Of a stretch of 12,596 nt of DNA, positions 83 through 7,174 are shown piece after piece (position 1 is the stretch's first letter; each line of letters opens with the position of its first letter). Where the stretch lies: positions 1 through 12,596 of the forward strand of contig JAUWXV010000095.1 in assembly GCA_030616165.1 (NCBI GenBank), in the 5' to 3' direction. The stretch comes from a bacterium. GTDB lineage: Bacteria > SM23-31 > JAUVVT01. The notes under the pieces are model-generated. The model was not told where the DNA came from. It did not search any database and was given only the letters and a program-made list of their open reading frames with translations. Position numbers and translations under genes: made by a program.

Positions 83-700
83 ATGAAGAGAAATATTTGG
101 GTTGGCTTCTTGTGTATTATGTTTGTGTTCATGCTCTTTGACAACCTTTTTTCACAGGAAAGTACTAAACGTCCTATTAAAAAACCGCGCTGGAAGGGTC
201 CAGAGATTGGCACAGTTGTTAAGGATTTTTTACTTAAGACCGTATATGGTGAGAACTTTACTTTATCTGACTGCAAAGGGAAGATTGTTGTTTTTGTATT
301 TGGAGCATGCACCTGACCTCCGTATCTGGGGATAATAGACGAAATGGATAAAATAGCCGAAGATTTTAAAGACAAAGATATAGAGTTCTATCAAATATAC
401 ACAAGAGAGCCTCATGCAGGCCAGAAAATGGCTTCATTTGATTTCTCCGACAAAAAACAGACCGAAACTCATCAAGAACGTGTTGATTATGCGTTGGAAA
501 TGATTAAAGAATACAGTCAAGAAATCCCAGTTTTAATCGACACTTTTGGTCCAGACTGTATCCAGAATACTTTAGGTGGTCATGCACCTGATAGTTTGGT
601 TGTAATAGACGGGGAAGGGAAAGTCGTTTTATGGCAGGATTGGGCAGACCCGAAGGCTTTGAGAGTAAGACTTGAAGAAATGACTGCTACTACAGAATAA
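83..700 (+). CDS. Selenocysteine-containing iodothyronine deiodinase-like protein (TGA at 314-316 read as Sec)
   Basis: A predicted 205-residue exported thioredoxin-fold oxidoreductase of the iodothyronine deiodinase-like family. A hydrophobic N-terminus (about residues 5-24) looks like a signal peptide or anchor. The frame is open from ATG 83 to TAA 700 except for TGA at codon 78. The residues around that codon read F-G-A-C-T-U-P-P-Y, matching the animal deiodinase active site (F-G-S-C-T-U-P-P/S) including the Cys two residues before Sec. Downstream, I-Y-T-R-E-P-H-A (E109, H111) corresponds to the deiodinase I-Y-I-E-E-A-H segment, and the end (H-A-P-D-S-L-V-V-I-D) is a typical thioredoxin-fold strand with a preceding Pro. 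The start follows an excellent Shine-Dalgarno, AGGAGGTAA at 71-79. The gene stands alone with its own promoter and terminator. GC in a sampled stretch (541-600) is about 43%, above the AT-rich core, hinting at transfer. The bacterial substrate is unknown; iodothyronine deiodination should not be assumed. The alternative is a nonsense-mutated pseudogene, which the exact Sec position argues against. Confidence 0.87.
317..346 (+). promoter_or_regulatory. Candidate bacterial SECIS hairpin just after the TGA
   Basis: Bacterial SECIS elements lie inside the coding region just 3' of the UGA and present a G in a small apical loop to SelB. Here UAUC (323-326) can pair with GAUA (331-334), leaving the loop UGGG (327-330). 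The base of the stem may be extended by C321-G341 and G322-C340 across a bulge. A competing fold pairs UCUG (325-328) with UAGA (336-339). The loop lies about 11-14 bases from the UGA, slightly closer than usual. The stem is short and weak, so this is a location for the element and not a confident structure. Confidence 0.3.
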
Positions 701-786
701 GATAAAAAATAAGAAAATAGAGTTGTTATATTATCTATTGAAAGTATTTTCCCATATGAGTCGGTTCGACTCTTAGGTTTTTTAAG

Positions 787-822
787 TAGGGAAGGCATAA
801 TATTGCCTTCCCTATTTTTTTT
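787..822 (+). terminator. Rho-independent terminator of the selenoprotein gene
   Basis: A perfect 11-bp stem, TAGGGAAGGCA (787-797) with TGCCTTCCCTA (804-814), closes a TAATAT loop and runs straight into eight T residues (815-822). It lies 87 bases after the stop at 700. There is no T-run on the minus-strand side, so it acts only on + strand transcripts. A smaller hairpin, GAGTCG/CGACTC (758-772), lies just upstream. Confidence 0.9.
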
Positions 823-834
823 GAAAAGTATTGG

Positions 835-903
835 GTGCTGTCACCAGCACACAGCTTACAAAGTGAGATTTACTAAAATAAGACTTAAATGAAGTTGTAC
901 AAC
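835..903. other. Two short palindromes in the 701-976 gap
   Basis: GTGCTG (835-840) and CAGCAC (845-850) form a 6-bp hairpin around TCAC without a following T-run. GTTGTACAAC at 894-903 is a perfect 10-bp palindrome of operator type. Neither can be tied to a regulator. Apart from the terminator at 787-822, the rest of 701-976 shows no gene. Confidence 0.35.
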
Positions 904-976
904 TATATATTTGAAAGATAATAAATTATCGTAATCCTGAAGAATATATTTTGATAAATTTTTTGTTTGTTTATTT

Positions 977-1153
977 TTATAATGGTATGTTTTCGATATT
1001 TTTATTTTGGTTTATTATTTTAGATTTGGGATTTTTGCTTAATGTAATAGTAGAACCACAGTTGAGGCACTGGTAAAGTTTTAGAAATTTTCCTTCTGTT
1101 AATGTTTTTTGAATACCGATATATGTTACAAACAGATGAGGGCAAATTGCCAT
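977..1153 (-). CDS. Small Cys/His protein, possible zinc-binding (hypothetical)
   Basis: A 58-residue protein I do not recognise by name. Its N-terminus has C-P-H (C4, H6), and a later Y-Q-C-L-N-C-G (C29, C32) resembles a zinc-ribbon knuckle, so one metal site made of CxH and CxxC is plausible. The tail from about residue 39 is rich in Lys, Asn and Ile. The start is chosen at 1153 because AAGGAG lies 7 bases upstream of this ATG. The frame stays open upstream to 1285, but that extension would be an unsupported hydrophobic stretch. It is convergent with the selenoprotein gene and lies downstream of tRNA-Phe on the same strand, so it could be reached by readthrough from the tRNA promoter. There is no signal peptide, so it is probably cytoplasmic. 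The ribosome binding site and Cys pattern make it likely a real gene. Confidence 0.6.
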   Translation of the reverse strand: MAICPHLFVTYIGIQKTLTEGKFLKLYQCLNCGSTITLSKNPKSKIINQNKNIENIPL

Positions 1154-1259
1154 TATATTCTCCTTATCTTTATTATATATATCGGCAAATTTAGGAAGTT
1201 CATTAATTAATTTAGGAAACGTGAAAGAGATTTTAGGTATGAAGAGATAAAATTTATAA

Positions 1260-1321
1260 AGCAGGTTTAGGATTAAAAGAATCAAACATAGAATTTTTAT
1301 TCTCTAACCCATGGACCTGCT
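1260..1321 (-). repeat. Long imperfect hairpin immediately 3' of tRNA-Phe
   Basis: Read on the minus strand, AGCAGGT (1321-1315) pairs with ACCTGCT (1266-1260). Inside it, GGGTTA-GAGAAT pairs with ATTCTT-T-TAATCC, with two G-T wobbles and one bulged T, around an A-rich loop. This gives about 19 base pairs in a 62-base span starting four bases after the encoded CCA. It may be the tRNA transcript terminator or processing structure, although what follows (TTTATAAATTT) is only a broken T-run. A small structured RNA is also possible. Confidence 0.5.
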
Positions 1322-1324
1322 TTT

Positions 1325-1400
<76 letters not shown>

Positions 1401-1430
1401 TTTTTTTAGGATTTGAGAAAATTTTTTGTC

Positions 1431-1459
1431 ATAATAAGTATAAATATTTAAAAAATCAA
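1431..1459 (-). promoter_or_regulatory. Probable promoter of tRNA-Phe
   Basis: On the minus strand, TTGATT (1459-1454) is followed by a 17-base spacer and TATTAT (1436-1431), a 4/6 and a 5/6 match to the sigma-70 boxes. Transcription would begin about 24 bases before the mature tRNA 5' end at 1400, leaving a short leader for RNase P to remove. Confidence 0.45.
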
Positions 1460-2712: not shown

Positions 2713-5043
2713 ATGAAAATAAAAGAGAATAAATTATTAGTTGTGATATTTATAGGATTTTTTATTGTTCCGGTAATAAGGACTAATGCTCAGGTCCCTA
2801 TTGATAGTCTAATAGTGCAGTTGGAGAGGCTCGTAGAGAAGGAGCCAAAAAATTATGAAGCATATTTTGATCTTGGAGCGGCGTATCTGAATAAAAATAT
2901 GATTGACCAGTCGATAGACTCTTATAAGAAGGCAATATCAATCAAACCCGATTTTGCAGAGGCATATAATAATCTTGGGATTTTATATTATTCTCAAGGG
3001 AAACTGGACGAGGCGATAAAAGAACTTGAGAGTGCAATAAAGTATAATTCAAATTTAGCGGAGGCATTTAATTATTTGGGAATCACTTATTTAAGTAAAG
3101 GCGATATTGATAAAGCAATTTCCAATCATAAATCTGCTATTAAAATTAATCCTGAGGCTTATTCATATTATGGGAATTTAGGGTATGATTATTATAGGAA
3201 AGGTGATTTTAAAGATGCTGTAAATTATTTGCAAAAATCTGTATATTTAAAACCTGATTTTATTACTGGATATAATAATATGGGACGTTGTTATTTTAAA
3301 AGTGGGGAATTTGAAGATGCGGCTCGCCAATTTAAAAAGGCAACTTATGTTAATCCCAATATTATTAATCCAAGATATAATCTTATTGCTGTGTATTTAG
3401 AGTTGAAGAAATATTCTGAAGCACTTGATGAACTTGACAAGTTGACGAATTTAAATTTGTTGGTTGCCCAGATTAGTTTTATACAGGATTTTTCCGGATT
3501 TGACAATGAACTGCTGGATATACCAGTCTCGCAAATAAAGAATGCTATAAAAAAGGATAAAGAATTTCTGGAGAAATTTTTGGATGCGTTTAAATTAGTC
3601 GGAAATGTTTATTTGAGCGAGGGAATTTTAGATGAGTCAGAGAAGATATTCAACAAAAGGATAGAAGTTGATTCAAAGTTTGCAGATGGTTATAACAGTC
3701 TTGGTTTTATATATTCACAGCAAGGAAAAAGTAAGGAAGCTATTGATTATTTTAGTAAGGCTATAAAAATGAAGTCGGATTTTGCTGATGCCTATTATAA
3801 TCTTGGAGTTGTACTTATGATGGATGAAAATTTCGATGAAGCAGAAGAAAATTTCAAAAAGGTGATTGAATTAGAAAGTGAATATTACTCTGCTTATTCT
3901 GATTTGGGAATGATATATCTGAGTAAGGGGGATGTCAAATCTTCAGTTTCATATTTTGAAAAGGCACTTGATATAAAACCGGATTATATATATGCAATAA
4001 ATGGTCTTGCAGATAGTTATTTGTACGATAGAAAGTATTCACAGGCAATAATTGAACTCAAGAAGATTTTAACTATAAATCCTGATTTAATAGAGTCGAT
4101 ATATAAAATGGCTGGTGTGTATTTAACGGCGGGCAGTCTTGATTCTGCCGCTGCACATTATCAACATATAATCAATGTTCAGCCCAATTTTATTGATGCA
4201 TATTTGGGTTTAGGTGATATTTACTTAAATATAGGAAATGAGGAAGATGCAATAAATATATATAATTATACATTAAATATAAGTTCTGATTATCCTTTAT
4301 CATATTACAAACTTGGAAAGGCTTATGCTCAGAAAGGTGATATTGATAATGCTGTATTGAATTTAAAGTTAGCAGAAAAATATGACCCAAATTTTGTTGA
4401 AGCAGTTTTTGAACTTGGAATGGTATATGGTATTAAAGGTAGCTTTGGCGATGCTATTAATGAATTTAATAAGGCAGTAAAGATAAATCCGAAATTCGCA
4501 GACCCATATGTTGGTATCGGTGGGATATATTATGATCAAAATAACTTAGAAGAAGCAGAAATATTTTTAAAGAAGGCTATAAACTTAAATCCTAATTCCG
4601 AAAGGGCACATTATACCTTAGGAAGAGTTTATTATGATAAAGGGGATATTGATTCTGCTTTAAAAGAATTTATAATAGAAAGAGAGATTAATCCTACCTT
4701 TGTACCCGCAGAGAATTGGGTTAATTTAGTTCAAAGAGAGAAGGAAGATATTGAAAATGCTTTAAAGTCGGGGAAATTGAGAGTAAGACATATACTTGTT
4801 AAAACTAAAAGAGAGGCAGATGGTATTGAAAGAGAGTTGAAGAATGGAGCAGATTTTGCAGAACTTGCCCGAAAAAGGTCGATTGAAAGAAGTTCTGGAG
4901 TCAAAGGGGGAGACACTGGATTTTTTAGTGTCGGGGATATGATACCAGAGTTTGAAGAAGCCGTTTTGAAATTAAAAGTTGGTCAGATAAGTAGTATCGT
5001 TAAAACAAGACTCGGATATCATATAATACAGAGGATGAATTAG
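2713..5043 (+). CDS. Exported TPR-repeat protein with C-terminal parvulin (PpiC-type) peptidyl-prolyl isomerase domain
   Basis: A 776-residue protein. Residues 1-26 form a Sec signal peptide (K-rich start, hydrophobic core, cut before Q27). Residues of about 36-665 hold roughly 17 tetratricopeptide repeats of 34 residues, most ending in a Pro-Asn/Asp junction. The array is broken once, at about 249-290, by a non-repeat linker that splits it into blocks of six and eleven. The last 88 residues (689-776) form a parvulin domain: it opens R-V-R-H-I-L-V-K, has G-A-D-F-A-E-L-A, then K-G-G-D-T-G-F-F and closes with L-G-Y-H-I-I. Parvulins catalyse cis-trans isomerisation at prolyl bonds, and exported ones (SurA, PrsA, PpiD) act as folding helpers in the periplasm. 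The TPR scaffold presumably binds client or partner proteins. No SurA-type chaperone domain and no lipoprotein Cys is visible, so the protein is probably periplasmic. The next gene encodes a large secreted protein, a conceivable client, but no operon link is proven. Confidence 0.93.
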   Translation: MKIKENKLLVVIFIGFFIVPVIRTNAQVPIDSLIVQLERLVEKEPKNYEAYFDLGAAYLNKNMIDQSIDSYKKAISIKPDFAEAYNNLGILYYSQGKLDEAIKELESAIKYNSNLAEAFNYLGITYLSKGDIDKAISNHKSAIKINPEAYSYYGNLGYDYYRKGDFKDAVNYLQKSVYLKPDFITGYNNMGRCYFKSGEFEDAARQFKKATYVNPNIINPRYNLIAVYLELKKYSEALDELDKLTNLNLLVAQISFIQDFSGFDNELLDIPVSQIKNAIKKDKEFLEKFLDAFKLVGNVYLSEGILDESEKIFNKRIEVDSKFADGYNSLGFIYSQQGKSKEAIDYFSKAIKMKSDFADAYYNLGVVLMMDENFDEAEENFKKVIELESEYYSAYSDLGMIYLSKGDVKSSVSYFEKALDIKPDYIYAINGLADSYLYDRKYSQAIIELKKILTINPDLIESIYKMAGVYLTAGSLDSAAAHYQHIINVQPNFIDAYLGLGDIYLNIGNEEDAINIYNYTLNISSDYPLSYYKLGKAYAQKGDIDNAVLNLKLAEKYDPNFVEAVFELGMVYGIKGSFGDAINEFNKAVKINPKFADPYVGIGGIYYDQNNLEEAEIFLKKAINLNPNSERAHYTLGRVYYDKGDIDSALKEFIIEREINPTFVPAENWVNLVQREKEDIENALKSGKLRVRHILVKTKREADGIERELKNGADFAELARKRSIERSSGVKGGDTGFFSVGDMIPEFEEAVLKLKVGQISSIVKTRLGYHIIQRMN

Positions 5044-5174: not shown

Positions 5175-5359
5175 ATTTTATTTTAATAATATGTGTAAAT
5201 TTTAAATGAAATTTTGAGTATAAAAAAGTATAAAATTTTGATATTTTTCTTATTTCTTTAATTATTAATTATTTATAAATTTCATATTGACTTTGTTTTA
5301 TACTGAATTTAATGTTTAAATCTTTGAATATAATAATTTTTATATTAAAAGGAATGGAT

Positions 5360-7174
5360 GTGAAGATAAATATAATAAAGTTTATTGTACTATTTTTATG
5401 CGTTCTTTTTTTTAATATTGATATAATATATTCCCAAATACAAGTTGATACTATAATAGTTAAGCCTGACTCTATTAATCTTACTGCTCCGGTTTCTGAT
5501 TCATTCAGAATATATATAAGTAATACAATTATCCATCCGGGTAGTGTCATACCTCAGGGTAATGTTGTTGCAGGAGATACGATATCATTTATAATACTGT
5601 TTTATGATATTTCATTTTTTAATATTGATTTTGCCGCTGAAAACCTTGATAGTGTGGTTACAAATAATAAGAGGAACGGATTGTTTCTTACACCAAGCAT
5701 TGATTCGGTTTACATCCAGCCTAATGGTATAGGTGGAAATGTTGCGGTTGGGATTTTTCCTTATCGGACAGATCCTACACCGGGTCTTACTGATACAGTT
5801 TGGTTTGTTTTTAAGGACACAAGCGGAAATGGCTACAGCAGTGAGCCAACGATTTTTACCACTGTCGAGAAGCCTATTTATATAACAATTCCGGAGATTC
5901 TTGCTCTTCAGGGAGAGACCTTTGATATTCCGATAAAAATGGAGGGGGGGTATTCAGTTGACGACAGTATATTGAGTTTTGAATTCGGTGTTAAGTATGA
6001 TATGACAATTTTAAAATTTAACAATGCCTCTCTTACCCCACTTACTTCAGATTTTTCTATCGAAGAGAATTTGATTGGGGATACAATATACATTTCCTGT
6101 GCCTATCATTATCCTGTAAGTTCAATTGGGGACCTCGTGTATTTGAATTTTACAGTAAATAATGGAACAGTTTATGGGGATAGTTCAGTTCTTCATATAA
6201 CAAAATCATTATTAAATGAGGGAAAACCATATTCAATTGATAAAGATGGAAAGGTAGATGTAAAGCCACTTTTTGGAGATGCTGACAGGAATAGAGCAGT
6301 TGAAGCACTTGATGCGACAAAAATATTAGAATACCTCGTAAACCTTGCAGTGATAGATTCAGTTGACAGCATTCATTGCGATGTAAGTGGAAATAATGCT
6401 GTGACTTCTTTTGATGCAGGACTCGTGCTGCAGTGGATTGTGACTCCTGTTGATATAAGGAGGTTTCCAGTAGAAGATTCGCTTGGTTTAAAACCAAGTT
6501 TAATGAATCGTAATGCTGAAATTTTAGTTTATTCAGAGCAAGATTTAAAAGAAGAGAGTTTTAATGGTTCAGATAACTATAAAATTATTTCGGTGGATTT
6601 GAAGAATATAGATGAGGTTTTTTCCTTAGATATGGTTTTTGATTATGATTCTGAATTTTTTGAATTCGCTGATTATAGAATACCAGATTTAACAGACAGA
6701 TTTAGTACAATTGTTAATGATTTACATGGAAAAATTTTGGTTGCGATGGTTGGAAGCAGACCTATAAAAAGCGATGGAAAGGTTATAGAATTTGTCCTCA
6801 GGAAAAATAATGGAGGGAATGGGGAGTATTATTTCACCGGTTTTATGATAAATGAGCGGGAGATGAACAACAGAATAGAATATATATCGACCCCATCCAG
6901 TTATATACTTTATCAGAACTATCCAAATCCATTTAATTTAGAAACAGAGGTAAAATTCATTATTCCTGAACCTTGTGATGTGCTGCTCAAAATATATAAT
7001 CTCCTTGGAGAGGAGGTAAGAACCCTTATAAATGAGAGAAGAGAAAAGGGTTATTATACAGTAAAATGGGATGGTAAAGATTCAAGGGGGCTGACCACTG
7101 CATCAGGTGTCTATTTTTATCGTTTGAAAGCAGGTTCGTTTGTAAGTACGAAGAAAATGATTTTAATTAAGTAA
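5360..7174 (+). CDS. Secreted cohesin-dockerin-cohesin-like protein with type IX secretion C-terminal sorting domain
   Basis: A 604-residue extracellular or surface protein. I start it at GTG 5360 because AAAAGG (5347-5352) lies 7 bases upstream and the product then opens with a classic signal peptide (M-K-I-N-I-I-K, hydrophobic core, cut near Y-S-Q). ATGs at 5312 and 5354 in the same frame are poorer. Domains, numbered from this start: a beta-rich region at about 27-165; a cohesin-like domain at about 171-300; a dockerin-like pair at about 305-361 (G-D-A-D-R-N-R-A-V, then C-D-V-S-G-N-N-A-V), each with calcium-loop Asp/Asn spacing and a following helix; a second cohesin-like beta domain at about 375-500; and a sorting domain at 514-604 beginning Y-Q-N-Y-P-N-P-F-N and ending in a basic K-K-M-I-L-I-K. 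The sorting domain directs export by the type IX system and surface attachment or release. Having cohesin and dockerin modules on one chain suggests self-assembly or scaffolding. No catalytic domain is visible. Confidence 0.88.
   Translation: MKINIIKFIVLFLCVLFFNIDIIYSQIQVDTIIVKPDSINLTAPVSDSFRIYISNTIIHPGSVIPQGNVVAGDTISFIILFYDISFFNIDFAAENLDSVVTNNKRNGLFLTPSIDSVYIQPNGIGGNVAVGIFPYRTDPTPGLTDTVWFVFKDTSGNGYSSEPTIFTTVEKPIYITIPEILALQGETFDIPIKMEGGYSVDDSILSFEFGVKYDMTILKFNNASLTPLTSDFSIEENLIGDTIYISCAYHYPVSSIGDLVYLNFTVNNGTVYGDSSVLHITKSLLNEGKPYSIDKDGKVDVKPLFGDADRNRAVEALDATKILEYLVNLAVIDSVDSIHCDVSGNNAVTSFDAGLVLQWIVTPVDIRRFPVEDSLGLKPSLMNRNAEILVYSEQDLKEESFNGSDNYKIISVDLKNIDEVFSLDMVFDYDSEFFEFADYRIPDLTDRFSTIVNDLHGKILVAMVGSRPIKSDGKVIEFVLRKNNGGNGEYYFTGFMINEREMNNRIEYISTPSSYILYQNYPNPFNLETEVKFIIPEPCDVLLKIYNLLGEEVRTLINERREKGYYTVKWDGKDSRGLTTASGVYFYRLKAGSFVSTKKMILIK

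Follow-up and report, generated by a model that had tools for sequence, protein, structure and literature searches.

How does a bacterium read a UGA codon as selenocysteine (Sec) when no canonical signal for this event lies beside the codon? The question is raised by a gene at positions 83–700 (plus strand) of a 12,596-nt stretch of bacterial DNA, contig JAUWXV010000095.1 of assembly GCA_030616165.1, referred to here as the window. The gene encodes a deiodinase-like selenoprotein and contains an in-frame TGA at 314–316. In contrast to archaeal and eukaryotic selenocysteine insertion sequence (SECIS) elements, those of bacteria are located inside the coding region beside the UGA (PMC13188914). 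For the window gene, comparison with its closest relatives points, with high probability, to a split bacterial SECIS: the UGA at 314–316 would specify Sec, and a hairpin in the 3' untranslated region (3' UTR), termed P2, would be held near it by a long-range helix, P1.

A reading frame with a conserved in-frame TGA

With the TGA translated as Sec, positions 83–700 yield a single protein of 205 amino acids that ends at the TAA at 698–700 and carries U78 within the motif GACTUPPY and a Glu-Pro-His motif at residues 109–111. A Shine-Dalgarno-like AGGAGG is recognizable at 71–76, upstream of the ATG at 83. Standard open reading frame (ORF) calling divides the region into two pieces, 83–316 and 344–700, as a first-pass annotation made from the sequence had predicted when it proposed that both belong to one gene with Sec at codon 78. 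This proposal is upheld by the relatives of the gene. Codon 78 is a TGA in three metagenome-assembled genomes (MAGs) that belong to the class of the source bacterium (58, 52, and 50% identity), in two MAGs from another group (53% identity), and in 36 further, more distant bacterial homologues labelled Nitrospinota, Rhodospirillaceae, Acidobacteria, Tectomicrobia, Gemmatimonadota, Planctomycetota, SAR202, Deltaproteobacteria, and the Firmicute Vulcanibacillus, among others. Because the same codon is TGA in all five orthologues and 36 homologues, the alignments indicate that the triplet at 314–316 is neither a chance stop codon nor a sequencing error, the latter being an objection which the annotation had itself raised.

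The window gene and its five close orthologues are treated below as a clade of six members. The orthologues derive from candidate division KSB1 B69T1L10 (G002), PL23a_bin.125 (G004), bacterium SM23_31 (G005), a Gemmatimonadales-labelled MAG (G387, locus L102), and a relative of the latter (G391). A search of 386 genomes with the Pfam model T4_deiodinase gave matches over the cut-off in 13, most of which contain an in-frame TGA, and no relatives were found in viral contigs and plasmids. A cysteine form of the motif, [FLM]G[AS][CYI]TCPPY, produced five pattern matches and no relatives among 84,980 genomes; cysteine forms with different motifs do exist (GSFTCPPF in L145, GSVTCPM in L152). In further members of the deiodinase family (L169/L170 in G145, L154 in G167, and L155 in G182), the Sec/Cys position is apparently occupied by Ser or Asp in GSSSDWGY, GSLSSPIY, and GSLTDPM, and the same set includes a GSSTUTMY variant. 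These proteins are possibly redox-dead or altered relatives.

Local SECIS elements in homologues and in the clade

The published bacterial SECIS (bSECIS) model describes a loop situated 16–37 nt from the UGA, a G within the first two nucleotides of the loop, and a minimum free energy of -7.5 kcal/mol or below (PMC13188914). Directly after the UGA, 34 of the 36 other deiodinase-like homologues conform to this model, with loops such as AGGUG, AGUUA, GGU, or CGUGC, and the two failing distant homologues have correctly built hairpins close to the threshold. The corresponding count in the clade is zero of six. Neither the window gene nor any of its five orthologues has a model-conforming local element, and no local hairpin is common to all six. 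The first-pass annotation had overlooked both this gap beside the UGA and the conserved 3' UTR structure described below. Marginal hairpins of 3–4 bp after the window UGA were rejected as local SECIS, as they are not conserved, and so was a long local stem, UGACCGC/GCGGUCG, which occurs in G004 and G005 and has no counterpart in the other orthologues. An Rfam search of the window returned tRNA only. In the source genome, a redoxin gene on contig C84 passes the bSECIS model (AGUCCGC-AGUUG-GCGGACU), and the gene for SelD has a 7-bp local hairpin that falls short of the energy limit. Local hairpins are likewise present in other Sec genes of G004.

A 3' UTR hairpin and a long-range helix

In the window, P2 occupies positions 757–773 (TGAGTC-GGTTC-GACTCT) and displays a SECIS-like loop. 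An intrinsic terminator with a 14-bp stem and a T run is predicted at 785–820, downstream of P2, which is consequently expected to be part of the gene's transcript. The consensus UGAGYC-RGNUN-GRCUCA was found in all six clade members, approximately 20–100 nt 3' of the stop codon and 5' of an intrinsic terminator, with the loops GGUUC, GGGUC, AGAUC, AGAUA, and AGGUU. The window copy was the best match (22 bits, E-value 0.0017) of a P2 model built without the window. Each searched genome that bears the gene has P2 once, at this site, with one additional chance-level match in G004; two genomes of the same phylum that have no deiodinase-like gene do not contain it, and a search of 42 further loci, comprising homologues and controls, did not find it either. 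P2 was later found in G391 too, which is no independent case since G391 is a close relative of L102. A short ORF across P2, with an MSQxGS-like product in four members, was considered and dismissed, as it has no ribosome-binding site and no conservation past the hairpin. P2 is a plain hairpin of 5–6 bp with a short loop and shows neither the GAA_A bulge of archaeal elements nor the GA quartet with AAR loop of eukaryotic ones.

P1 links this hairpin to the UGA region. In all six members, a segment that starts 10–18 nt after the UGA is complementary, over approximately 10 bp, to a segment that lies a few nt upstream of P2. In the window, the 5' strand (TGGGGATAATA, 327–337) starts 10 nt after the UGA, with U333 bulged or mismatched, and its complement (TATTTTCCCA, 745–754) lies in the 3' UTR; the pairing is UGGGGAUAAUA/UAUUUUCCCA with one mismatch or bulge. 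The five other orthologues show perfect complementarity over 10–11 nt that starts 14–18 nt after the UGA. The pairings include GAAAAUACCC/GGGUAUUUUC in L102, GAAAAUGCCU/AGGCAUUUUC in G004, ACAUUUACCCG/CGGGUAAAUGU in G005, and GUACGAUACCUGCUA/UAGCAGGUAUGUAC with one bulge in G002. Outside the window, the P1 site is in each orthologue the longest stretch of the gene that is perfectly complementary to the pre-hairpin segment. Compensatory changes were identified in 7 of the 10 pairs, none of 500 shuffles was as good, and slid registers scored near zero. The cognate combination of 5' and 3' strands was the best among 120 permutations. In homologues outside the clade, P1-like complementarity reaches 6 nt at most. 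Folding of the RNA minus the ribosome footprint predicted P1 at high probability in all six members, and the effective distance from the UGA to the P2 loop via P1 is approximately 18 nt in the window and 18–25 nt in the clade, within the normal SECIS range of 16–37 nt. Taken as a structure predicted from comparison, P1/P2 is well supported.

In a blind scan, 594 read-through ORFs (0.81 Mb, mostly from G004 and G005) were searched for perfect helices of 9 nt or longer with an adjacent hairpin. It yielded five matches: the clade genes of G002, G004, and G005, one paralogue in G004, and one unverified locus. Ten permutations gave one match in total, corresponding to approximately 0.1 expected against the 5 found. 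The paralogue, also deiodinase-like, is the gene next door in G004 (L048, contig C174, minus strand, U at 4820), and its motif GACISGGUGSSW has the Sec shifted by four residues. Its helix (GAAAUAUUAU) comprises 10 nt with a shuffle p of 0.0004, but in the predicted fold a local hairpin prevails over it. It is possible that L048 has a split SECIS of its own, pairing with the stop-codon region. The unverified match (L213, contig C225 of G004, minus strand, 0-based offset 12575) reads FGKSUIRKF and has a 9-nt long-range helix with an adjacent hairpin; it may be due to chance.

A proposed mechanism and its alternatives

From the combination of P1, P2, and the conserved codon, we infer a SECIS function and Sec insertion at the UGA at 314–316. 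In the proposed mechanism, the complex of SelB, GTP, and Sec-tRNA would bind the apical hairpin P2 through the winged-helix domains of SelB, a contact suggested by the similarity of the P2 loops to SECIS loops. P1 would fold back approximately 430 nt of mRNA and thereby place the P2 loop approximately 18 nt from the UGA, the usual place of a SECIS. A ribosome arriving at the UGA would then meet the tethered complex and insert Sec, after which it would melt P1 and translate the remainder of the frame, and P1 could re-form behind it. More broadly, it is likely, if somewhat less so than the split element at this one gene, that a new two-part class of bacterial SECIS exists, which combines a SelB-binding 3' UTR hairpin with a positioning long-range helix, serves more than one gene (including the G004 paralogue), and makes Sec insertion dependent on a complete transcript.

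Several observations weigh against this interpretation. The P1 of the window is the weakest of the clade, with 9–10 pairs, one mismatch or bulge, and a core of -7.6 kcal/mol. Near the UGA, perfect complementarity in the window extends over 7 nt at most, in a run that would pair with a different 3' UTR site, and the strict blind scan misses the window. Inclusion of 250 nt of upstream mRNA in the folding leaves P1 weak or absent in several members, among them the window; P1 may therefore depend on ribosomes clearing the upstream RNA. Only six orthologues are available, two of which are identical in the P1/P2 region, and the P1 alignment (A11) was laid out manually to follow the structure, so that its pairing percentages are inflated. 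P2 taken alone shows little covariation (one pair), and its loops AGAUC and AGAUA depart from the usual G[G/U].

Sec might also be inserted by means of a SECIS immediately 3' of the UGA that is weak or atypical and that the models miss, with the 3' UTR structure serving, for example, mRNA stability or regulation. Indeed, some bacterial SECIS elements fall outside the model (PMC13188914; PMC12013277), and a marginal hairpin with a 4-bp stem, UAUC[UGGG]GAUA, can be drawn immediately behind the UGA of the window, where the fold reaches only -4.5 kcal/mol. However, a hairpin of this kind is not shared by the six orthologues, local ones do occur in these genomes at other Sec genes, and it would be left unexplained why a long-range helix with covariation starts from the SECIS position, which makes this account improbable.

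The likeness of P1 to the long-range readthrough interaction of tombusviruses (PMC3234231) raises the further thought that the helix favours near-cognate decoding of the UGA, for example by Trp, in a programmed readthrough that does not involve Sec. Such a scenario appears very unlikely, given that the codon aligns, at the catalytic position, with Sec codons that have a canonical SECIS in 34 homologues, that selA, selB, selC, and selD are present, and that the P2 loop resembles SECIS loops. Least credible of all, and close to negligible, is a genuine stop codon in a split or decaying gene with the 3' UTR hairpins as part of a terminator region. Two standard ORFs do exist, yet the frame, the motif, and both halves are conserved over six orthologues and in dozens of homologues, P2 is a hairpin distinct from that of the terminator, and the covariation of P1 involves the segment that follows the UGA. 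A split SECIS thus stays the preferred reading of the locus.

The encoded protein

The product belongs to the bacterial deiodinase-like selenoproteins and has a thioredoxin fold. It matches T4_deiodinase (PF00837) at 37.5 bits against a cut-off of 27 when Cys is substituted for Sec in the query, and all eight sequences of the family alignment match this model. It scores 75.9 bits against a cut-off of 250 for the NCBIfam deiodinase family protein NF038285 and is thus related to this family, not a member. A profile of the eight sequences placed DIO3 (1e-19) and DIO2 (4e-16) ahead of ResA (1e-11) in the PDB. In the AlphaFold model (pLDDT 92), the highest query-normalised TM-score among the listed matches belongs to DIO2 (0.67, compared to 0.5–0.6 for ResA-type proteins), even though several ResA-type proteins come first in the Foldseek E-value order. 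A hydrophobic N-terminal helix (residues 3–26) is consistent with export or membrane anchoring. ResA/TlpA thiol-disulfide oxidoreductases share the thioredoxin fold and the N-terminal hydrophobic segment and are strong structural matches, but the window protein has U-P-P-Y in place of CxxC, and the family profile fits deiodinase chains better.

Ten residues are invariant in 30 sequences (G74, T77, U78, P79, P80, Y106, E109, H111, D153, and P169). The match to the animal deiodinase active site claimed by the first-pass annotation therefore holds in part: T-U-P-P and the E-x-H that follows Sec (U78, E109, H111) are shared with DIO2 and DIO3, whereas the second histidine of DIO3, in the segment before L-x-D-R-V, is replaced by T127 in the window and by Thr across the clade. 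The aligned position is His in DIO3 and in Nitrospinota homologues. Consequently, thyroid-hormone-like catalysis is not implied. Structural alignments with DIO2 and DIO3 give 18–19% identity, and the window protein differs from both in being bacterial and probably exported. The protein probably has a redox role outside the cytoplasm, in which Sec would provide a reactive selenol and Glu109 and His111 would act as active-site helpers. A multihaem cytochrome c gene follows the deiodinase-like gene in four orthologues (G004, G005, L102, and G391). The occurrence in a bacterium, which had seemed odd at first, is no novelty: a bacterial deiodinase-like selenoprotein from the Sargasso Sea was reported in 2005 (PMC1088965) and such proteins appear in current reviews (PMC13188914), so the window protein is of an already known kind. 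It shares with the Sargasso Sea type the active-site Sec, a T4_deiodinase match above the cut-off, and the bacterial Sec machinery, and is set apart by the lack of a local SECIS and the presence of the 3' UTR element.

Selenocysteine machinery and neighboring genes

The source assembly (90% complete) contains a tRNA-Sec with TCA anticodon (selC), selB, selA, and selD, the very genes which the first-pass annotation had proposed to look for. The selD gene carries an in-frame TGA of its own, and selA is split across two contig ends. SelB of the source genome contains the domains SelB-wing_2 and wing_3. Two divergent SelB types, approximately 39% identical, occur in each of the assemblies G004 (L180, L188) and G005 (L182, L187), one resembling the SelB of the source genome and the other that of G002. 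A dedicated second SelB for the deiodinase-like gene was considered and rejected: only one SelB was found in the incomplete assemblies G000 and G002, so a second one is not required.

The deiodinase-like gene of L102 adjoins selA, selB, and selD and has on its other side cytochrome c and a further TGA-containing redoxin gene (348–1442, minus strand, FHRSADWUGYC), which is located 3' of the deiodinase-like and cytochrome c genes. The C84 redoxin of the source genome (L051, position 2023, FASWUPVCS) represents a second selenoprotein candidate there, with a textbook local SECIS; its redoxin domain has a HYDIN-type Ig domain on one side and, towards the C terminus, a FlgD/Por secretion tail. Elsewhere in the window, 2713–5043 encodes a tetratricopeptide repeat (TPR) protein with a terminal PPIC-type peptidyl-prolyl isomerase domain, and 5312–7174 a secreted protein with cohesin and a FlgD-like C-terminal domain.

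Relation to known elements and implications

Canonical bacterial SECIS elements of the E. coli fdhF type share with the window element a short apical hairpin, a G near the loop start, an effective spacing of 18–25 nt, and a winged-helix SelB. They differ in that the apical hairpin of the window lies in the 3' UTR and is connected to the UGA region by a helix spanning approximately 430 nt. The 3' UTR location is shared by archaeal and eukaryotic SECIS elements, whereas the window element has a bacterial loop type, a bacterial SelB, and a pairing next to the UGA. In tombusviruses, RNA just 3' of the stop codon interacts over long range with the 3' end of the genome (PMC3234231) in a manner resembling P1, but these elements are viral and involve neither Sec nor a SECIS-like hairpin. 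No report of a bacterial 3' UTR or long-range SECIS was found in the literature searched, the coverage of which did not extend to subscription papers.

If the proposed arrangement is correct, a bacterial SECIS hairpin located in the 3' UTR and put in place by base pairing would break the rule that these elements reside in the coding region. The selenoprotein gene finder described in PMC12013277 inspects only 300 nt after the UGA, and if the arrangement holds, some selenoproteins may be missed. The arrangement would also suggest a simple route by which a SECIS could shift from the coding region to the 3' UTR.
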